From positions 6,884,992 to 6,948,991 of the forward strand of contig NC_134441.1 in the NCBI RefSeq assembly GCF_030867145.1: a stretch of 64,000 bases of DNA, read 5' to 3'. This document shows, one piece after another, positions 1-64,000 of this stretch. Made by a program: the position numbers and the translations under genes. Every line of letters begins with the position of its first letter. The first letter of the stretch is position 1. The notes under the pieces are model-generated. The model saw only the letters and a program-made list of their open reading frames with translations. It searched no databases and was not told where the DNA came from. The stretch is from Opisthocomus hoazin. Lineage: Eukaryota > Chordata > Aves > Opisthocomiformes > Opisthocomidae.

Positions 1-2888
1 TCCTGCCTGTGAATGGCTTCCCAAACTGTTGTGTCTTTTGGCTGAAGTCCTTCAGTAAAATGACTTGAGAGCTTTGGTTTGAATAGAAAGCAGCCCTGGA
101 AACGGGCGTTGCACAGCTTTTAGCTATTCCTTGGCCTCTGGTCATGAAAGACCCCTCTTCACCCGAGCGCAGAGCTGACCGCTGGCCGTTGTTTGCTTTG
201 GCACAAGAGGGATGAGCGAAACATGCTGACCTGCTGGTTACGCGCTCTTTGTTGATCCTTTGCTCTTGTAAAACATTCTTATTTAGTTTACTGTTGAGCT
301 TTCTGGAGTATCGTAAGCCAAAACTGTAACCTAGAGGGGAATTTGGCGTATTCTGTTAATCACACTGACATGTGCTCTGAGCTCTTGAGAGCTCGAGATC
401 TTTCAGCCGTGACTGTAAGGCTACTCACTGCACGTTATCTGCCTTTGCCTTCTCGGATCTCCTTCCTGTGGCTGTGTGCCGCGCAGCAAGACCATCCCGA
501 CGCTTCAGGCGGTCCCAGCAGCGTGTGAACAGAGCACTGCGTTCTTGCGCGCCATGGGAAAGCTGCAGTGACTTCTTTTGAAACCTGACTGTGTAGCTTT
601 CAGCTAAGTCAGGGCCCTGCTACCCCTCATCGTAGTTTTTGGAGAGAGATTGTTTCAGTCCAGCTTAGTTTTTGATGAATATTTGCTGAGGCTTTTAAAG
701 TCCAATTTATGCAGTAGCAAGAAATAATAGCTGTGTAAAATGAAGTAGGTCAAAACGGGTGCTTAAAGATGATTAAAACTGAAAAAGCAGTTTTTTTCTG
801 AAAACTACTAGGCATGTGGTTCTGCTAGACTTGAAGTCTGACACCCCTCCTCTGGTATTCTTGCTGATAACTAACACATGTTATTCTCCTCTGTTATGAT
901 CTGACTAAGGGGGATACTCTCATTTTTGCATACTGTTCGTGGCAATTGCTCTGCCCGTGTGTTTATACTCTGGGCTAAAAACCATCTTGTATCCATGAAA
1001 AACGTTGTGAGAGGTTTCTTTTGAAATCAGCGCTGGTAGGTATTGAAGTCAGGCATGTCAGACTAGTATGAATGTGTCTTGACTCGGGCAGCTTTTATTT
1101 TTAAAGAACCCATGTGTCCTGCCCCGTTGACTGCATTTGCTTTGGGAAATCCCCTTTGTTTGCTGCGAGGGGAGCAGCCTTGTGACAGCAGTGGTACTTC
1201 CTTCCTTCCTCCCTTCCCCTCCGACTCTCTCTGACGTGGGGCAGGACTTTATTTCTTTCTCAGCCTCACCTCCTGACCTGCGAAGAATTGAAAAATACGT
1301 TATTTCCATAGCAGTATTTCTCCGAATGCCTGATGAAAATTTACAGATCTCAGTCTTGTGAAACCAATCTGAAAGTACGTGGCTTCTTGAAACCAAATGT
1401 TTCTTTTCCAAGAATTTTTTGCCATATATTCCCACCCCACAGTCCGATTTAGTTGGACCTGTTGTAAAGACTCCCCTTACTTTTCCCATTTCCTCCCCTG
1501 ATGTCCAATGCTAGACTTTTAATCCCTATGCTTTCTATTTCATTTGTCTATTCCTTAGGCAAATGCCTTTCATCCCCAGGTCTCAAAGCGCTTCAGCAGG
1601 AAGCTCTTGATCACCAGCCCTGTTTAACACAAGGGGAAACTGAGGTACAGCCCTGGAAGTGACCTGCCTAAGGTCACACAGGAGGTCAGTGTCAGAGCTG
1701 AGGTTTTAACCGATGTCTCTTGAATTTCAGGCTCATTGCCTGGGATTTCTGATACATTTCCTCATGAAGCAGCTTGAAAGGCTGGTTAATGTGTTTTTGC
1801 TCTGTCTGCATACGAGTATGTGATCTTCTGGTCGTTTTTTAGGGATAGCCAAGACCTAGCAAAAATACTGGAGGATTTTAGCTTCTGGATATCTGGATTT
1901 GGAGCCAAGTCCTTCCCCCTTCTCCCTCGCCTTTGGTGGTTGCCAGGAAATGATGGAGCTTTAAAGGGCTGGGGAGCTTTTTCCCACTGCGCTTTGGCAT
2001 TGCTTCATTTGGAAACTATTGAACCCTCAACCCCCACGTGTGCTGCTGGACCACTCCGTGTGCCGGGTGCCTGAGTGAAGGCTGGGGAGTACGTGAGCGG
2101 GAAGTGGGCAGAAAAGGGCTGGGATTTAACCTCTGCACAGCATCTGGATGAGTCAAAAAGTTGCTGGCTCATACCTTATATGAGTTGTTTTTTTAAGGAT
2201 GTAGCACTTGTATGACAAGTCAGTCCCTATGCAGACTTGGCAACCAAAAACTGGAGACTATTAGCCACTACCCCATTGAACAGCCAAGGTTGGCCAAGAC
2301 TACTTCTGCAAAGTGTCTGTGTACAGTGACATGTTGATGCTCTACAGATGAAACCAGATGCGCAGTGACAGAAAGAAGTCTTCTGCCATCATATTGGGAA
2401 AACAGACTTCAATATAAATACCTCACTTCTGATCCTACTGTCATACATTTCATTACCTTTCTGGTTTTTCACTGTTTAAGTGATGGGTTTGGCTCCTTTA
2501 TGGAAGGAGGTAAGGGAGAAAAATGGTTCACTTCTGTCCTGGTAGGATTTGAACCAAGGTTTGCTGGAGCTTGCTGGAGCCACTGAACTACTGGATATGC
2601 GAAGAAATAGGGAAATCAATTGCTAGCACTTGTAACCAGTATAATTTTGTCCTGGAAAAAAGTATTTTCTAGATGAAACTATTCAGCAAGTTAACCTAAA
2701 CTTACAAATTATTTTAATGGTTTGGGGTTTTTTCAGTTCATCCACCCCACAAGAAATAATTTACTTGACTTTGGTTTTTACAGGCGGCATTGGACATAGT
2801 CTCTTCCATAGCTTTATTCCCTGCTGAAGCAAGAGATATAAAGACTGTGTCGTTACTAAGCTTTATTCAAACTTTTCTTTCATTTCAG
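1..2888 (+). other. LOXL2 5' intron (or upstream) sequence
   Basis: No exon, RNA gene or convincing long reading frame was seen. Because the first coding exon begins with a splice acceptor, this is most likely the 3' part of LOXL2 intron 1. It holds a MIR-like SINE relic at about 1560-1740; the rest is unremarkable. Confidence 0.6.
1560..1740 (+). repeat. MIR-like ancient SINE relic
   Basis: The stretch ggggaaactgaggtacag, then aagtgacctgcctaaggtc and acacaggaggtcagtgtcag, followed by agagctgaggtttt, is the order and spacing of the MIR core and 3' half. Copies of this age (before the amniote split) persist in bird genomes at low density. Boundaries are approximate. Confidence 0.7.
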
Positions 2889-21300: not shown

Positions 21301-24300
21301 TGACCTATGGGGCCAGGAGAGCATCAGCTGGTTGGTTAGGGGGACAACTGAATTCTTCAGGCAGGAGTTGTGGTTTTCCTGCCTGCTCCTCTTGGCCTGT
21401 GCAACTGCCATTTCTAAAAGCTCCCTCTGGAACCGGCTGGCCACGTTTCATTTCTTTCATTAGCGAGATCGCGATCAATTGAAGAGGTCCTTGGGTTGGA
21501 ATAGCGTAAAGCCACATAGCAGCTCAAAGAATATAAGATAAGTAACTCAAGTGGAATTCTGTTTTCAGGCTTCCCAGGAAGGTGAGCAGTGAATTAGTAA
21601 TTGCTGTCAGGCGGTCTCATGTTTTGCCCTGGACACCAATTCGAGGAGCTTATGCTCCCATCAGTGCAGCATGTCTCCCTCTAACTCGGCTCCAAGATTC
21701 CCATCCCCTGCATCAGAGCAGGAGGGCAGAATAAATTACCTCTAGTAAGACAAAGTAGGTTTTTCCTGCTTCTCAGTTGTGGTGTTTCCAAGAAAAGCAT
21801 TAACTTTAGCAGCCGAAGCCATCTGCCTTAAATAAAAGGGTGCTTGGTAATCGTCCTGTCTCTTGCAACAGTACACGTAGAGATGGAAAAACTGAGGCAC
21901 GGTTGTTCAGCGTGACATTCAGCAATGCTGAAAATCCCATTCGCTGGAGCTGGAGTTAGGAATACGCAGTGCCTACAAACACCAGGCTTGGAGATCTCTG
22001 CTACCGACCCAGACGCTGCTGAGACAGCCTCGGTGCCCCAATACCTGCCTCACCTTTCCCTGGTTTTGGCAAGCAGTAACGGCTTGCCGGGCTCCCACAC
22101 CCACAGAAGGGTGTTTTGGAAAATATGCTGCACGTTATCCTGGGTTCCAAGAAGATGAGATGTCATTTTATTGGAAGGAAGAGTCTTGTAAAACTTTGTC
22201 AGGTAGATGGTTTTGTTTGGTTAGCATAGTTTGAAAAGCTGCGTTCTTTCTTGGGATATTTGCCTTTGAGCTTTGTGTTACTGGCAGATGCGTCACGTAC
22301 AACCAGCGTTGCTGGTGAGGGAAACCTCCCAGTTCTGGGCTGGGAACTTCAGAAGTAATTTTTGCTTCGTGACTGAGGTACTGCAACGATCACCACTGCA
22401 ACTGGCTCACCTGGGCCACGGGAGCTCTGCTCTCAGCTTTGCCGGTGCTCTCTGGTCGCGTCCTGTCCTGGGGAGGGAAGAGCTCATCTCTGGATGGGCA
22501 CTTGAACTAAACCCTCTCTCTACGTGTGTCTGAAGCCTCAGAAACGTTCTGCTCATTTCTCGGGCTTTGCTCTCCCTGATTTGTAAATACCCTTCTCCCA
22601 AGAGTGGATCCTTTCCTGCTCGTGCTCCGCAGCGGGGAGACGGGCTGGAGTCGGGTTTCTGCTGGCCGCGCTGCGAGTGCCCCCTTCCCACGTCCCCGGC
22701 AGTCCCACTCCCCGCAAACTGCAGCTTTGCTTGCTGAGCTAGCTGATGCTCTGCTCCGCTGCTGCACAACGGTGGGAGGTGAAATGATTTGCAGATGGGT
22801 CTTGCTTGAAAGAAAACAACTTAGTTCATTGTTGTTCTGGTGCCAGGGTTTTATTCCTGAATGTAACTTAGACTCTGCAGTTGACAGCACAATTTATGGT
22901 AGGAAATGAAACAAGCCTCTGTGTTGTTTCCATGTTCTTGTTCATTCTTCAAAGTGATTTTATATAGGCACCGCTTGTTAACTCCTCCTTCCAGTTCCTG
23001 CTCTGGTTGAGAAAGCAGAGTGGAATTAAATGCGTTTTACTGATGGAGAGAGAGAAGTTTGTGACCAGAGATACCTAAGGCGGAGAGATGGACCTGATGC
23101 TTTCTCGAGGTCTTACAGCTTTGTGATTTGTCAAAGAATGGGATGGAGGAGCTCAGCAGTTCCAGGATATCGAGACCAGCCCTGAGGAGAAGGATGGGGG
23201 TGCTGAGGGATTAAAAGCTGGCCGTGACCCGGCAGCGTGTGCTGGCAGCCCCGAAGGCCAACCGTGCCCTGGGCTGCATCCCCAGCAGCGTGGGCACAGG
23301 GCGAGGGGGGGGATTCCACCCCTCTGCCCCGCTCTGGTGAGACCCCCCGGGAGTCCTGCGTCCAGCTCTGGAGCCCTCAGCACAGAACAGAGCTGGAGCT
23401 GTTGGAGCGGGGCCAGAGGAGGCCCCAGCAATGATGCGAGGGCTGGAACCCCTCTGCTGGGAGGAGAGGCTGGGAGAGCTGGGGCTGCTCAGCCTGGGGA
23501 AGAGAAGTCACCAGGGAGACCTGAGAGCAGCTGGCAGTGCCTGGAGGTGCTGCGAGAGAGCTGGAGGGGGACTTGTGACAGGACAAGGGGGGATGGCTTT
23601 AGGCTGAAAGAGGGGAGATTTAGATTAGATATAAGGAAGAAATTCTGCACTATGAGGGTGCTGAGGCCCTGGCCCAGATTGCCCAGAGAAGCTGTGGCTG
23701 CCCCCTCCCTGGAAGCGTTTAAGGCCCGGTTGGATGGGACTTGGAGCACCCTGGGCTGGTGGAAGGGGTCCCTGCCTGTGGCAGGGGGGGTTGGCACTGG
23801 GTGGTCTTTAAGGTCCCTTCCAACCCAAACCATTCCATGACTCTATGATACTTCATTCAATGTCAGTCCAAACAGCATCTCCCAGTTTAACCAGTCTGCT
23901 CACAGCATTATAAACCTGGTCAGATGTGTAGGGCAGTTAGTCACTTTACGCTTGTAGTGGAAATCACCGTGGTTTGGGCTTTCCCTAGCAAAGCCAGGAT
24001 CTTAAGGGCTTTGGTAGTAGGCGGCAGGTCTGGCTTCTCCCTGAGGCTGAAGACAGCAAACTTGTTAACTTCAGTAAATGCTTCAAGAATTGGTCGAGCG
24101 TAGAAACTGCTCTCAGCACCAGAAATGTATGCTCACACCTCTGAGGAGTCCAGCAGCTTCTGTTTGCTGTGTTATAGGTGAGTTTTCCTGGGATGCATGT
24201 GTGTAACGGTTTGTTTTCTGCTTTCCTCGAGTCCCCTCTGACACACTCTTACGTAGCAAGGTTGCTTTAGCTAAACCCTTAGCCACTTCCCACAGCCCTT

Positions 24301-27300: not shown

Positions 27301-30300
27301 CTGCAAAGAAACGCCCTGAGAGACTGGGAAAACAGGGCCTGTGGAAAAGCTGAAAAAGCTGTGCGTGTTTAGTCTAGCAAGGAGAGGGCTGAGCATAGCG
27401 TAAAAATTCCAAGATATGCAAAAGGCTGTTATGAAATGACCCCGGAGTCGGTTAGTGTCAGTGGGGCAGCTGAACGCGGCTCAGCCTAACGCGCGGCAAA
27501 CGTGGTTTAGGTTGCTGCCGAGGGAAATTTTCCAGCCGTAAGGTCTGTGCAGCCTTAGGACACAGGGGTGACCTCGGGGTCTGGAGGTTCTTTGTGCTGG
27601 GCAGAGGGTTTTTTTGCAGGGTGCATCGTAGCCTGCACCCTCCAGCCCTGTGCCTCTGTGGCTTTAGGAGAGGGCTTTCCCTTGGCCCCCAACAACACCT
27701 CCAGGCACTGCTGGAGTGGGAATAGTACAGACCTGTCCCTGGTTTGCTTGCCTGGAGTCTGGGCGCTTCTCTGCGCGAGAGCTTGCGGGATCTAGGCCTC
27801 AAAGGCGGAAGGTCTTGTAAATCATTGCTCCTCTTCTGAGCCACGCGTACTGCCAAGTAATTCCTTAAGCCTTTGTGTAGGCTTCGGGTGTCCTTCATGT
27901 GACCCCAGCCTGGAGAGCTGTATACGCTTCCAGTTTGGAAAAGTCAAGGTTTCTTTTGCTCTCTGACTGCTCAGATCTCATGGTGTTCCCACGCCTGCGG
28001 CTCCCACCTCAGCAGCGCATCTCCCGGGTGCAGCGGCCGGCTGCTCCGCACCAGGGAAAGGTGCAAGCCGTGCGCAGTAGGTGCCTGAGAGAAATGTAAG
28101 AAGGACAGAAATGAACGGAAGTGGCCCTGCCACTCGGCTGTGTGTTTCTGACCGCCATCTGCCAGATCGCTTGTTCCAGAGACAGTTTTCACGTGGCTTG
28201 CGCTGCGCGTTGGTCTCCTCGGCTAACCCGCGGCCCCTCTCTGGAGGTGCGTGCAGCAGATGCGTCCATCCAGCAGCTGAACCGCAGGCAGCAAGCGGGT
28301 GAGAGCGGTGCGACGGCTGGCTCGGCGCGGTTCCCCAGCCTCCTGCAAGGCTCCCGAGGGACGGGGTGTGAGAAGTCCGGCCTCTCCTGTGCGTGGCAGC
28401 ACGCTGCTGCCGCAGAACTGCGGGTGTGAAGAAGGCTCCTAAAGCAAAGCGCTAAAACTGCAGAGAACTACAGTGGCTCTCTTTATTTTCTGCCCACGTA
28501 CAGGGACATGAGAAATGTATGTCTGTGGTACCGTAAGTCTCAGCAGATGTAGATCTCCTCTCATCCTGAAGCAGAGGAAGTTCCACCTGAACCCGAGGAA
28601 GAACTTCTTCCCCCTGAGGGTGACGGAGCCCTGGCCCAGGCTGCCCAGGGAGGCTGTGGAGTCTCCTTCTCTGGAGATATTCCAGCCCCGCCTGGACACG
28701 GTGCTGTGCAGCCTGCTCTGGGTGACCCTGCTTGGGCAGGGGGTTGGGCTGGGTGACCCACAGAGGTCCCTACCAACCCCGAACATTCTGTGTGATTCAT
28801 CCCACACTTTTACCCTTTTGTATTATGTGCTGGTTGTTTTAAGGTGCCTCAGGGTAACACGTTTTGGGCCGCAGCTTACCTGCCGCCACATGAGCTCTAA
28901 AGCAGGGATGTTGCTTTGTTCCTGGGCAGGGGTAACACCACTTCTTGTCTGTGCCTTCCAGCAGCCACTGGTGAGGCTGAAAGGGGGAGCCAACACTGGC
29001 GAAGGACGCGTCGAAGTGCTGAAAAACGGGGAGTGGGGAACGGTTTGCGATGACAACTGGAACCTGGTGTCCGCCAGCGTGGTGTGCCGAGAGCTGGGCT
29101 TCGGGAGTGCCAAGGAGGCAATCACAGGCGCCAGGCTCGGGCAAGGTAAGGGCAGCGACTGCTCCCGGGACCGGTCGTGCCTTGTCCACCTCCAAGAACC
29201 CTTTCATGATTCACGGCAGTGTATTTTTGCTGGGATGTTTGTTTTGGGGACTAGGAATTTATTCCCTACCCTTAGGAAGTCTCTTGGGTCCAGGAGGTTG
29301 AGGCTGAACTGGAATATGTCACTTAGAAAAATCTTGAGATTCCTTGAAAGAAGTCTAGTAGCGATGAGTTTAACCTTTCTCTCAGACAGCTGTTCCAGTA
29401 ATTACTACCTCATTATCATGTCTACTGGTCTCAAATTCTCTTTCGGAGTTCTTTAGATCCGCATCATGGTGTAATGCATTGCTAGAAGGTTTCTGGCAAA
29501 AACGGTTCCTGGATCTAGGCTTCAAACACTCTCCAATTTAAGACCAGAACGTTAATTTAGCAAATTATAAATAGAAGGGCATTTGAACAGTTGAGAGCCA
29601 GGTTTGGGTTTGGATTTCCTGTATTTGGGAGTTGGTTCAGATCCCAAACTGTGGTAAAGGGTAACTCAAAGCCTAACGTACGCCTTCTCAAACCACCTTC
29701 TGATTCACATGCCTTGATCTCATGGTGTAAACCCCAGAGAAAACGACACCAAACCCTTTATGGTGAGACTAAATGAATGGGTGAAATTTCTTCAGCCCGC
29801 CATGGCTTGGAGAAGGGGAGGGAAAGGAACAACACGTGCAAAGCGCAGTGGTGGCGTCCACAATCTGGAAAGCTTTAGAATGCGACCTGTCCGTTGGATT
29901 TGCCAAAAGAAACCTTGCGGTGGGATGCAGGGAGCTGCTGATGTGCTTAGCTGCATCTAGGAAACGGCATCATCGTCACGGGGGGGAAGCGGCTGCCACG
30001 TGAGGGAGCAGAACACGCCGTTCCCTGCCAGCTCCCGCAGCCTGGAAACTCTGAGCAGCGGCTGCCGGTTCCCACACGTTGGCCTTGCTTTTAACGTTAA
30101 ACGCTGGCAATCAATCAGTGCCCCCGGCCGAAACTGTCCTCCGGGACGATGAGCTCTCGGTAGCTCCCTGCAGCAGCCGGCTCGTCACACTGCGGTAGGA
30201 AAAGGAGCTCTTTTGGCCCCAATTCACCTTCGTGCTCCCCTTGCACAGGGGAGTCTCCCAGCCGTTGAACTCTGTGTCCACCTGCGTGTTTACCCTGCTG

Positions 30301-39300: not shown

Positions 39301-42300
39301 AGAATGAAAATGGGAAAGGCCTGGAGCAGGGAGTGAAAAGTGATTAACTTCTGGCAGGTGGCGATTTTTTTTTGGTTAGGGGAAAGGCAGGAGCAGGTAA
39401 GAAGAAACCCACTCTAGAGGAAAAATTTCCTCCCCTTCCTCCTTGCCCCTCCTTGATCTGTAACTACGTGTGCAGAGTGACGCTGCAGTAATGGTGGTTG
39501 GAAGCTTTTAAGCCACGATTATTTTTACAGCTGGAAGGAGAGGATTTCTGCACTTTTTTTTTAATTTTGTTAAACTCCTAAGGGATGGCTTTTGAATCAG
39601 GGCCTGTCTGTGCAGCTGCCTCGCTCCTCAGAGTTGAGCTATGCAGACGGGCTCTGGTGGCTTCTCTGCGCAGTGCTCCCACATGTGGGGGCACCCGCTC
39701 CGCTCTCCTGTTCCCCACAACGTGCTCACGCTGCGGGTTTGCTCCCGATTCCAAGGCTGGGATCAAATTCAATGCCTTGCATCAGCGTGACAACATTTAC
39801 GTGCCCAGCCTGACCGCGGGGAGCACGCAACTGTGTTTTAATCGGGTCCTTCCATCTGCTTCCCGCTCTGTGAGTCCCACGGACTTCAACGAGACCAAAG
39901 CACAGGCTTAATTTTTTGCTGAGCCAACAGCGTGGCATAGAAAAAAGTCAACACTCCCGAGCCCAACATCACCCAGACCCTGCCGCGGCCTAACTGTGCT
40001 GGTTTGGGGGGTACCACGCAGCCCGCGTGCTCGCTCCCGACTGCTGCTGCGCCCAGCAGCGTTCCGACCGCAGCCCAGCCCAGGCTGAGTTGACACTAAC
40101 ACCTCCCCGTTTATCATTATGAAACGCAGCATGTGTGAACCCAGCTGTTGGGTTGCTTAGATCTGAGCGGAGCGAGCGCCGAGAGAAGCTGGTTCCATCT
40201 GTTGGGAGTTTTCTGCCAATAAATTTACAGTCTGCCTCTTAAAAAATAAATAAAAATAGCCAGGTTGCTGCTCTGGGTACTCCAGCTCTGTTCGCAGCCT
40301 GCTGTTAAGGAGCAGGCGAAATATTTCTTGTTCTGGTGCATGACGTGGCCTCTAGAAGCGATGACCTGGCTGATGACATTTTTCCCTTCCTTGCTGTTAT
40401 AAAAGACGGTGTGATCCTACCACGGCTGGGGCAAGGCTCTCCCCTGGAACAGCTTTAGCGCTTGGTGTGTCAACAGATACCCGGGCCAGGAGCCAGTGTG
40501 AAGGCGGCATGGGCGAGGGTGCCACACGGGGTCATGCCCAGGGGAATATTTCCCGGCTGTGGTTTCTCTCGCTCTTCCTCCCGCGGCACCGCCTGGCCCG
40601 CAGCACTTCGCGCGGTGTCGTGTGTTTATCCCCGTGGCTGCGGGGAGGTGAAACGCCCGGCCCGAGGGATGCAGCAGCACAAAGACTCGAGCCTGGGCTG
40701 AGTCGCATCCGAGTTGTCGTGCCCTCGCCGCTGGGACACGCTGCGCAGCCCTGCTAATTCAAGGGGTGGCTGCTCTCCCTAAAGAGGACTCTCCCTGTCC
40801 GTACCTTGCAGGCACTACCACAGTATGGAGGTTTTCACCCACTACGATCTCCTGAACCTCAATGGAACCAAGGTGGCTGAAGGACACAAAGCCAGCTTCT
40901 GTTTGGAAGACACTGAATGCGAAGCAGGTAGATTTGCTGGGAACTTGTTGCTGTCCCCATACGGATGACTGGCCTCCAAGGTGCCATCCAAGTCCTGAGC
41001 AGGGCTAGAATGGGGCCTGACAGGAACCAGAAACCCGTCCCGAGGGTTATGTGTGTACGGAGTGGTCTTTGCAGGGATAAGAGAATCCCCAAAGGCCCCA
41101 CATGCTGTGGTTTTCAGCCCTCGGCTCCTTACATCCTTACTCTGAGCTGCTCTGGTTCCTGCAGAGCGAGAAACTCCAAACCGTGCCTCCGAGCGACGAG
41201 GCGGGGAAGGTGGCAGCTCCTCCCGTGCAGCGAAGCAGCACGTGTATTGCAATACAAGATGCTGAGCAAGACGCTGTTTTATTTAATCCCAGCCAAAACA
41301 CCGCGCCTGCCGCTTTTCGCTGTGGGAGCTGGCGAACGACTCGCCCTTCCTCCGCCGCGTCCGGGGGGGGGGAACTCCCAGCCCAGCTTGCTGTGGCTCT
41401 ATCACTCTGTGCCTTTAACTCTTCTCCTTCAGACGTGCAAAAACAGTACGAATGTGCCAATTTTGGTGAACAAGGGATCACAGTTGGATGCTGGGATGTG
41501 TACCGTCACGACATCGACTGCCAGTGGATCGATATTACTGACGTCCCACCAGGCGATTACCTCTTCCAGGTATGGGGAGAGAGGGTGTGAGACAGTGCCA
41601 GTGCTTTTATCTTACCCACTGGGGTGTCAGGAATGTGACTAACTGGTTTATTGTATGTATCCTACAGTACTATAAACTTCCAATTACAGAGATTATATTC
41701 CTAGAGTACCTAAAAGATAAAGAATTAGCTAACAGGACAACAGCGTTACCAGATCACATAGGTCCCAAGTGAAAAATCAGGGCAAATAATCCGAGCTCAG
41801 AGAGGACAATCTTGAGGAATCGGCATCCGGCTCACAGCCGACAGCCCTGCCCCATCCCCCTGCGGCTCACGTCGTTCACGGGCCGCAGGACACGGCACAG
41901 CACGTGCAACGCGCCGCGTCCCGCTGCCGTCTTGCGCTGAGCTTCTGGGCGGGCTGCAAGCAACGCTCGCTTCGCTTGGGGGTTCAACAGAGCTGTGGTG
42001 TCGGCAGGAGGAGGCAAGACTGTGCCTGCAGTTGGTTTTGTGCAAGTGGGCCGAGTTCTCTGGTCCTAAAAACAGCCACTGCGACTGGAGAGGAGCGAAA
42101 GGAAGAGGAATTATTTTTGTCTGCGCTGCTAGCGTGTGAAATGGAGAGAAGGTGTCTGAGGGTGTATCTTGGTGCATGGGGGAAGGTGTGATCTTGATCT
42201 GGCTTTAATGAAGTAGTTTCTGTCTCCTTGCAAAATGAGTTAGGATTTTCTGTTAAAAAAATGTATTATGGTGTAACAAACAAGCTGATTCTGCCTCAAT

Positions 42301-46224: not shown

Positions 46225-53900
<7,676 letters not shown>

Positions 53901-53984: not shown

Positions 53985-55560
53985 CCATCCCTTACCCTGG
54001 GCACCCCAGCACCATGCATGTCTCTGTGCACCCCCTCAACTCCCCTGTACACCCCCCAGCATCCTATACTGCTCTGTGCACCCTACTGCACCCCATCCCT
54101 TTCCCTGGGCACCCCGTGCTGCCCTATGCACCCTGCTGCACCCCATCCCTTTCCCCAGGCACCCCAGCACCATGCATGTCTCTGTGCACCCCCTCAACTC
54201 CCCTGTACACCCCCCAGCATCCCACACTGCTCTGTGCACCCTACTGTACCCCATCCCTTTCCCTGTGTACCCTGCTGCACCCCATCCCTTGCCCTGGGCA
54301 CCCCGTGCTGCCCTATGCACCCTGCTGCACCCCATCCCTTTCCCCAGGCACCCCAGCACCATGCATGTCTCTGTGCACCCCCTCAACTCCCCTGTACACC
54401 CCCCAGCATCCCATACTGCTCTGTGCACCCTACTGCACCCCATCCCTTTCCCTGGGCACCCCGTGCTGCCCTATGCACCCTGCTGCACCCCATCCCTTGC
54501 CCTGTGCACCCCCTCAACTCCCCTGTACACCCCCCAGCATCCCACACTGCTCTGTGCACCCTACTGTACCCCATCCCTTTCCCTGTGTACCCTGCTGCAC
54601 CCCATCCCTTGCCCCGGGCACCCCGTGCTGCCCTATGCATCCTGCTGCACCCCATCCATTTCCCCAGGCACCCCAGCACCATGCACGTCTCTGTGCACCC
54701 CCTGAACTCCCCAGTACACCCCCAAGCATCCCACACTGCTCTGTGCACCCTACTGCACCCCATCCCTTTGCCTGTGTACCCTGCTGCACCCCATCCCCTT
54801 CTCTGGACGCCCCAGCATCGTCTATGGCTCTGTGCACCCCCTCAACTCCTCTACACACCCTCCAGCACCCCATGCTGCCTGGTGCACCCTGCTGCACCCC
54901 ATCCCTTTCCCCAGGCACCCTAACACCCCGTGCTGCCTGGTGCACCCTACTGCACCCCATCCCTTTCTCCGGGTACCCCAGCACCCCACATGGCTCTGTA
55001 CATCCCCTCAACACCCCTGTACACCCCCCAGCACCCTCTGCTGCACCCCATCCCTTTCACTGGGTAACCCAGCATCACCTCTGGCTCCGTGCACCCCCTC
55101 AACACCCCTGTACACCCCCCAGCACCCTCTGCTGCACCCCATCCCTTTCACTGGGCACCCCAACACCATATATGGCTCCGTGCACCCCCTCAACACCCCT
55201 GTACACCCCCCAGCACCCTCTGCTGCACCCCATCCCTTTCACTGGGCACCCCAACACCATATATGGCTCTGTGCACCCCCTCAACACCCCTGTACACCCC
55301 CCAGCACCCTCTGCTGCACCCCATCCCTTTCACTGGGTAACCCAGCATCACCTCTGGCTCCGTGCACCCCCTCAACACCCCTGTACACCCCCCAGCACCC
55401 CCCGCAGCGCCCCATCCCTTTCACTGGGCAACCCAGCACCACGTATGGCTCTGTGCACCCCCTCAACACCCCCATACACCCCCCAGCACCTCGTGCTGCC
55501 CGGTGCACCCCTCAACTCCCCCGCGCACCCCGCTACCACCCTCCCCATGCACCCCCCGCA
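53985..55560. repeat. C-rich minisatellite in R3HCC1 intron 1
   Basis: About 1.5 kb of tandem sequence built on blocks such as ctgctgcaccccatcccttt and caccccctcaacacccctgt. From about 55000 to 55460 the period is about 91 bp (equivalent points at 55008, 55099, 55190, 55281). From 54000 to 54900 the spacing of the 'accatgcatgtctctg' block is irregular (about 54011, 54169, 54358, 54678), which suggests a compound higher-order array. Strand-asymmetric: C-rich on +, G-rich on -. Confidence 0.95.
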
Positions 55561-57295: not shown

Positions 57296-57735
57296 AGAAT
57301 CATCAAGGTTGGAAGAGACCGCCAAGATCATCAAGTCCAACTGTCTACCCATCACTACCATGCCTGCCAAACCATGTCCCCAGGTGCCACATCTGCACAT
57401 TTTTTGAGCCCCTCCAGGGATGGGGACTCCACCACCTCCCTGGGCAGCCTGGTCCAATGCCTGACCACTCTTTCAGTAAAGAAATTTTTCCTAATGTCCA
57501 ATCTAAACCTCCCCTGACGCAACTTGAGGCCGTTTCCGCTCACCCGATCGCTGGTTACTTGGAATAACCCCCACCTCACTACAACCTCCTTTCACGTAGT
57601 TGTAGAGAGCGAGAAGGTCTCCCCTCAGCCTCCTCTTCTCCAGACTGAACAGCCCCAGCTCCCTCAGCCACTCCTCGTAAGACTTGTTCTCCAGACCCTT
57701 CACCAGCTTGACTGCTCTTCTCTGGACACGCTATG
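57296..57735 (-). mobile_element. CR1 LINE, 5'-truncated copy C
   Basis: The + strand starts with tagaatcatcaaggttggaa (reverse complement of a CR1 3' end) and runs through gcagcctggtccaatgcctg, tttttcctaatgtccaatct and ccagactgaacagccccagc to agcttgactgctcttctctg, i.e. a minus-strand CR1 truncated at 57735. Lies upstream of R3HCC1 in intergenic DNA. Confidence 0.93.
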
Positions 57736-61618: not shown

Positions 61619-62983
61619 TCAATCGAACGCTTTGCTGGGGAAAGGTGTAATCTTCTCCAGCGAGACAGCCATTTCACACTCCACGTGCATCACTGCAGGC
61701 AAGGCACCCGCAGGGCAGGTGTTGCAAGAGGGCTCGGAGACCTGAGAAACCTTGTCAGAGGACACCTCGTTGCCTTCTGTCTGCAGAGCAGCATGGGGGA
61801 GAAGGTGGGGGTAGCTGAGGGTCACCAACTCCTTCTGGTACGTGGTGTCGTGGTGGTAGGAGACCAGCTCATTGCTGAAGTTCACTGTCTCCACTGCATT
61901 GCTGGGGCAAAGGTAGCCACAGCCCAAGATGGTTGCAAAAGCTCTGCGGAAGTCTGCGTTGAAGGCATAGATGATGGGATTGAGGGAAGAGTTGGCCCAC
62001 CCAAACCAGACGAAGATGTTGAAGACAGTCTCGCTGACACAAGGAAGCTCTCCTGGCTCCTGTACGTCAAGATCACAAAAGGGCACCATGCAGTTGAGCA
62101 CAAAGAAGGGCAGCCAGCAGAAGACAAAGACACCCATGATGATGGAGAGGGTCTTAAGGACCTTGGTCTCCTTCTTGAAGGAGTTCTTCAGGGAGGCCTC
62201 GTGAGGGCAGTCGCTGCTGTGGCAGCTTTGGGCATGTTCCACCGCCTTCTCCAGGGAGGAGATCCTGCGGATTTGCTGCTGGGCGATGCGGAAGATGCGG
62301 GTGTACGTCACGATCATGATGGCCACAGGGATGTAGAAGCTAATGAGAGAAGACGAGATGGCATAAGTCCTGTTGAGGCTGGAATCACAGTTTTCCTCCT
62401 CCCCGGTGATGTTAAAACCCGGCTCCTGTTGGCTAAGGAGGTCACGATCCTTGTGCCACTTCAGCTGCACAGGGATGAAGGAAATCAAGAGGGACAGTAG
62501 CCAAGCCACTCCGATCATGATGAAAGCCACACGCTGCGTCATCTTCCTCTCATAGCAGAAGGGGCTGGAAATGGCCCAGTAACGGTCCATGCTGATGATG
62601 CACAAATTGAGGATAGAGGCTGTGGAGCACATGATATCAAAAGCCACCCAAACATCACAGAAAGCCCCAAAGGGCCAGAACCCCACCACCTCAGCGACAG
62701 CCTTCCAGGGCATCACCAGTACAGCCACGAAGAGGTCGGAGACTGCCAAGGAGATAACGAAGAAATTGGTGACCTTAGAGCGCAAGTGTCTGAACTTCAC
62801 CACAGCTGCGCACACCAAAGTGTTGCCCAGGAGCGTGGAGAGGATGAGAAGGAAGAGTAAGGCAGCCATCACCACACGGAAGGACAACTCAGGGTTGCCT
62901 TCTTCTGCCCAGCTCTTCCCAGTGCTGGTGTCATTGATCACATCCTGCCCATCTCCTTCTGCAGAGGAGTAAAAGCCATCCAT
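61619..62983 (-). CDS. DRD1C: D1-class dopamine receptor, intronless; probably D1C (D1D) subtype
   Basis: Gs-coupled class A GPCR for dopamine, plasma membrane, cAMP-raising in the family. 454 residues in a single exon, as in all D1-class genes. Seen: N-terminal sequon Asn17; TM1 GN54; TM2 D83; Cys109; TM3 Asp116 (amine anchor); DRY 133-135; TM5 serines 211, 212 and 215 for the catechol; short third loop; CWLP 289-292; NPIIY 335-339; palmitoylation-type Cys355/359; long tail ending with the D1-type VSLEKI block. An in-frame TGA 36 nt upstream of the ATG (context ACCCATGG) supports the start. The N-terminus, extracellular loop 2 and tail differ from D1A and D1B, so I read it as a non-mammalian subtype: D1C (the chicken D1D) or, less likely, D1E. 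The symbol is provisional. The mostly tandem-free neighbourhood offers no paralogue. Confidence 0.9.
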
Positions 62984-64000
62984 GGGTTCCTCTTTATTCC
63001 AGTCCCTCGAGAGGTTTCACAGCTGTTCAAGTCTCCATCAGCATCCAAAACCCCTTTTTACTGCTCCACTGACATCTCAGAAGCACCAGCTACAATCCTC
63101 CCAGCTCTCACACCCAGGTAGACGATCCTGCACAAGGAAAAGGGCTTGAAGCTCTCGCTCCTCTCCAGATCTCCTGCTGACAGTGCGGCGTTTGGGTGTT
63201 TTCCCCTCTTTTGCCTCCCACCCCACTTTTCTTTCTTTGCAGCCTGCTGCTCACAAAAAGCCAGCGCTCACCTCCGGCACTTGAGCGAGCTGGGAGGGCT
63301 TTGCTGCAAGCCTTCCTCCCTCTCCTCTCGGGAGCTCTTCACCCCTTATTGATCTGGTGCCTGCTACGGAATCCCAGTCGATCCCTTCTGCACTGGCCAG
63401 GCTGGGACTTGCTGCCAGACGCAAGAGGGAATCTGAGCTCTCTCTGCTCTTGCAGACGGACCTTCCCTGCTCACGAAACGGACTGCTCTGCTGCCTGCTC
63501 TTCCCTCTGTTGCCACTTGCCTCTGGATTTCACTTGGGTGAGATCTCTCTCTGCTTGCACACCAGGTCCCTGACTCTCCAGGTCGGTCCTCTGTGAGCTA
63601 AGAAGAGCTTGGCATTGGGAATCTGCAGCTGACAGGGTAAGTTACTTGGGAATTAGGTGACAGGATTGAAGGGGTAAAATCACAAACATTCAAGTGGGAT
63701 TTGAGGGTCTTCAATGCAAATCATGATGGAAATTCATTATGCCTGACCTCCGAATAAGAGACGCCTAACTCACTGCACAGGCACCGAGTCACGGCTCAGA
63801 CATGACCCTAAGCCAGTCACTCCCCCCTGTCCCCAGCCGCAAGTGGTGCAAAACTGGCATTTACTTTCTACTGCAAAACACCTCCAAGTCCACAGGAGAA
63901 AAAAAATTGAAAATAAAAAAATAACACACACACACACAAAACCCCCTTGTACCAATCTGACAGTTTTTTCTTTCTGAAAGTATCAGACAAAGCACAGTTT
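62984..64000. other. Upstream region of the D1-class receptor gene
   Basis: Probably 5' UTR and promoter of the receptor on the - strand. No TATA box or clear 5' exon could be supported. A short (CA)n run lies at 63925-63939. Confidence 0.5.
63925..63939. repeat. Short CA microsatellite
   Basis: About seven AC dinucleotides next to an A-rich stretch. Confidence 0.9.

Follow-up and report, generated by a model that had tools for sequence, protein, structure and literature searches.

A probable DRD1E dopamine receptor gene flanked by CHMP7 and an R3H-domain gene in the hoazin genome

Introduction

Which D1-class dopamine receptor is encoded near the end of the window (the whole stretch of hoazin DNA that was analysed, 64,000 nucleotides), and does its position mark a gene that mammals have lost? 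The preliminary description proposed that the frame is neither D1A nor D1B, offered D1C(D) and D1E as the alternatives, and took the place to be that of a lost mammalian gene. The last of these points is likely right on published statements and is already in print: DRD1C and DRD1E were described in 2015 as lost in mammals, with their former positions plotted on human maps, and DRD1E was reported missing in only 7 of 43 bird assemblies (PMC4595791). Opazo 2018 assessed synteny in human, chicken, gar and elephant shark, and the legend of Fig. 2 of that work names a DRD1E synteny panel, though not the genes in it (PMC5900934). DRD1E in birds is thus already known, and both the gene described here and its location are as expected. 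We suggest that the window frame is, with high probability, an intact gene orthologous to DRD1E, the fourth of the D1-class dopamine receptors in vertebrates. Our contribution is twofold: the gene is assigned as probable DRD1E, and in the hoazin genome it is placed with CHMP7 on one side and an R3H-domain gene on the other.

Results

The receptor frame

The coordinates first reported for a 454-residue intronless frame are exact (Table 1), and we add the strand: the plus-strand translation of the interval contains stops, and the receptor reads from the minus strand over 1365 bases as 454 codons and a terminal TGA, with no other stop. The translation matches Pfam 7tm_1 (E 1.3e-69, 235 bits, cut-off 30.5), which places it among the class A (rhodopsin-like) GPCRs, and the closest solved chains in the PDB are human D1B (579 bits, the best) and human D1A (545 bits); with these scores the frame is far beyond chance. 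Asp116 and Ser211/212/215 are present at the residue numbers initially given for these D1-class hallmarks, and DRY is found at 133-135, CWLP at 289, NPIIY at 335 and VSLEKI at 440. The residues by which we recognise the D1 class (Asp3.32, three TM5 serines, DRY, CWxP and NPxxY) are all the same as in human DRD1. A wider comparison by alignment covered the catechol pocket, DRY, the toggle Trp, NPxxY, the extracellular disulphide and the tail cysteines, and all 29 of the 29 selected sites are identical to human DRD1. The alignment also agrees with the earlier observation that the N-terminus, the second extracellular loop and the tail are unlike those of D1A and D1B.

By analogy with its family, the encoded protein would be located in the plasma membrane and would bind dopamine through Asp116 and the serines at 211, 212 and 215. 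It would likely couple to stimulatory G proteins and so raise cAMP, as other D1-class receptors do. In situ analysis of the chick forebrain is reported to have given no clear signal for DRD1E (PMC11774857).

Table 1. Positions of the receptor gene, its neighbours in the window and the likely DRD1C gene
Feature	Position	Strand	Basis
Probable DRD1E reading frame (one exon, 454 aa)	61619..62983	-	frame, Pfam, tree, primers, site comparison
In-frame upstream stop (TGA), 5' bound of receptor frame	63017..63019	-	36 bases before ATG
SRCR exon piece, taken as LOXL2	28971..29147	+	Pfam
Presumed LOXL2 exon piece with lysyl-oxidase domain	41411..41575	+	Pfam; Lysyl oxidase homolog 2 as sole PDB match at E 1e-5
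Large open frame, presumed part of an R3HCC1 exon	50891..52474	-	open frame; no Pfam family at E 0.001
Presumed R3HCC1 exon piece covering most of R3H domain	52617..52745	-	R3H match
Exon piece with start of R3H match, taken as R3HCC1	53805..53897	-	R3H match
Likely DRD1C gene, very short N-terminus	L003 (G000:C6:61467647-61471948), CDS 1447-2808	-	chicken primer fit

D1-class loci and the tree

A protein search of the window's own genome (1.48 Gb, 415 contigs; the window itself lies on contig C28) gave 102 matches, the best candidates among which were scored. The top five rows represent four D1-class loci, namely the window gene and genes on contigs C22, C6 and C5, the last in two pieces. A search for relatives beyond this genome gave 6 pattern stretches on genome contigs and 2 on viral contigs, of which tblastn confirmed 0.

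The tree was built from nine rows: the four own-genome D1 genes, fragments of human DRD1 and DRD5, and three own-genome receptors to which we give the label adrenergic-like in this analysis. The D1 receptors cluster apart from the adrenergic-like three with a branch support of 100/100. Human DRD1 forms a pair with the C22 gene (100/100), and human DRD5 forms one with the C5 gene (89/98, under the 95/80 mark of the tree tool). Neither pair takes in the window gene or the C6 gene, and in these nine rows no grouping of the two with each other is resolved. The tree thus upholds the proposal that the window holds a D1-class gene distinct from both D1A and D1B.

Identity between the window gene and its C6 counterpart is 61.7% across all aligned columns. 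Gap-free identity to the genome's own D1A and D1B is 66.4 and 69.7% for the C6 gene and 75.1 and 76.6% for the window gene. The divergence ranking of Haug-Baltzell 2015, in which DRD1E is fastest and DRD1C next (PMC4595791), does not fit here, as judged from these sequences, since the C6 gene, the likely DRD1C, is more divergent than the window gene.

Naming of the genes by chicken primers

Primers and probes for chicken DRD1, DRD5, DRD1C and DRD1E are printed with their positions in PMC11774857, and the genes were named by matching these primers to the four own-genome coding sequences. The DRD1 primers match the C22 gene at the two positions published for them, with 3 and 1 mismatches, and the DRD5 primers match the C5 gene with 2 and 1 mismatches, at 222 and 937 (published 201 and 925). 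The forward and reverse primers of DRD1C match the C6 gene with 2 and 3 mismatches, at 140 and 818 (published 146 and 806). Altogether, 7 of the 8 primers fit their assigned gene with 3 mismatches or fewer. Shuffled coding sequences never gave fewer than 6 mismatches (four forward primers, 100 shuffles each), a control that demonstrates homology only.

The DRD1E forward primer matches the window gene with 2 mismatches at nucleotide 417, which is the published start of the probe. Because of common descent it also fits the other genes, C6 at nucleotide 345 with 3 mismatches, C5 at 420 with 4 and C22 at 375 with 5, and 2 against 3 mismatches is a thin margin if position is ignored. Within the primer site, the window gene carries a Cys codon (PFCYER), in place of which the remaining three genes of this genome all have Arg (PFRYER). 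Avian DRD1E (chicken MK138990.1), compared via primer and probe positions only, shares with the window gene both the location of this site and the Cys, but its reverse primer, which lies in the variable tail, finds no fit, with at least 7 mismatches in all four own-genome coding sequences. The marks that distinguish the window gene at the sequence level are nucleotide position and the Cys codon, together with the DRD1C primers going to C6, and its direct tie to DRD1E consists of one primer plus elimination. On the grounds of forward-primer position, Cys codon and the match of the DRD1C primers to C6, we conclude that DRD1E is the most likely identity of the window gene. The four loci, the tree (with its DRD5 pair at 89/98) and the primers together give this one genome a D1-class gene besides DRD1, DRD5 and DRD1C.

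The main competitor is DRD1C, the classical avian D1D. DRD1C is a D1-class receptor that, like DRD1E, occurs in most of the birds studied and is reported lost in mammals, and a published ranking in which DRD1E diverges faster than DRD1C would suit the window gene better as DRD1C (PMC4595791). We nevertheless consider this identification improbable. Both chicken DRD1C primers find their match in a separate locus, C6, whereas the window coding sequence shows 8 and 6 mismatches to the forward and reverse primer, respectively, and is not identified as DRD1C by them; the two primers encode the peptides NWFVLSL and CLLPFCQ, both of which occur in the C6 protein and are missing from the window protein. 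From the pair of names first put forward, D1E is therefore the most likely one by primer fit.

The neighbourhood of the receptor

Exon pieces with SRCR and lysyl-oxidase domains and a minus-strand gene with an R3H domain (E 1.3e-14) lie in the window, in agreement with the R3HCC1-LOXL2 neighbourhood of the preliminary description as far as the domains are concerned. We provisionally take the R3H-domain neighbour to be R3HCC1 from the R3H match, and we take the lysyl-oxidase gene to be LOXL2 from its sole listed PDB match and the human gene order CHMP7-R3HCC1-LOXL2. A search of 184 kb with a human CHMP7 probe gave 13 rows. Nine of them have E values of 7e-4 or lower and all fall within C28:6954566-6961673 on the minus strand; the other four lie elsewhere with E values of at least 2. 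The joined translations of the CHMP7 exons match Pfam Snf7 (E 3.6e-19). These exons lie 5.6-12.7 kb past the end of the window and on the receptor's strand, and the receptor is therefore located between CHMP7 and R3HCC1, about 7.7 kb from the R3H pieces and 6.6 kb from the nearest CHMP7 match. The genes recognised run in the order LOXL2 (+), R3HCC1 (-), probable DRD1E (-) and CHMP7 (-). The interval originally named for the receptor is thus the correct one, with CHMP7 exons on one side and the R3H-domain gene on the other.

The R3H piece matches nowhere else in the hoazin genome (2 rows, both within the window) and, being single, yields no evidence of paralogy. When the literature was searched with R3HCC1, LOXL2 and receptor terms, R3HCC1 was named among the best 20 of 206 matches only by PMC8554124, which concerns Huntington's disease.

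Overlapping large minisatellite arrays with periods of about 50, 91, 158, 189 and 320 adjoin the R3HCC1 pieces at 54001-55531 and are traversed by open frames of several hundred codons. A tandem repeat at 49164-49327 consists of five copies of 33 bases with 90% matches. Three segments (23619-23738, 28581-28697 and 57391-57498) resemble the end of what we take to be a CR1-type LINE reading frame.

A single exon might also point to a retrocopy or to a non-functional copy in decay, the function of the frame is predicted here from sequence, and the budgerigar DRD1E has been judged a genuine loss (PMC4595791). Such an origin is very unlikely for the window gene: D1-family genes are described as single-exon (PMC2904815), the frame is intact and retains 29/29 of the selected sites, and CHMP7 and the R3H-domain gene flank it on both sides.

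Discussion

Of DRD1 and DRD5, it is DRD5 (D1B) that comes closest to the window gene, for the C5 gene is its nearest row by both path and identity (67%), the highest identity of any other row. It is nonetheless a different locus, and the window gene stands outside the DRD5 pair and has a shorter second extracellular loop. DRD1 (D1A) shares every one of the 29 selected sites, but it is found at the C22 locus and differs in N-terminus and tail, and the window gene stands outside its pair too. An additional copy of D1A or D1B is hence scarcely credible, in spite of the closeness to the C5 gene and the best PDB match to human D1B, because the C22-DRD1 pair (100/100) and the C5-DRD5 pair (89/98) both exclude the window gene.

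The assignment of the window gene as probable DRD1E has two consequences. First, the CHMP7-R3HCC1 placement in one more genome gives a defined interval in which receptor remnants can be sought in mammals. Second, DRD1E is told apart from DRD1C, the gene as which D1D is treated in PMC11774857; the older name D1D still denotes a separate subtype beside D1C in a 2021 review, in the available text of which the term D1E occurs 0 times (PMC8541398).

The two genes also raise the matter of their common origin. We give an even chance to the proposal that DRD1E and DRD1C are partners from whole-genome duplication, and did not arise by a later duplication in the ancestor of jawed vertebrates. That the four D1 regions belong to a quadruplicated linkage group has already been published (PMC4595791), and the duplication-partner reading, if true, would speak against the scheme proposed in Opazo 2018 (PMC5900934). 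Open frames of at least 30 codons from the flanks of the two genes, taken over 184 kb on C28 and 120 kb on C6, were compared and gave 229 rows. Among the best 25 of these 229, the receptor ranks first and is the only recognisable gene shared; the remaining 24 look like interspersed repeats, because few segments match many places. The proposal draws on the genes that share a contig with each receptor: the window gene, the likely DRD1E, lies on C28 together with LOXL2 and an adrenergic-like receptor, and the likely DRD1C on C6 is accompanied by an adrenergic-like receptor and, 2.7 Mb away, by another lysyl-oxidase family gene. We note that the lysyl-oxidase family has five places in this genome (L021-L025), the window's own (L021) included, and that the C6 member is presumably LOXL4.
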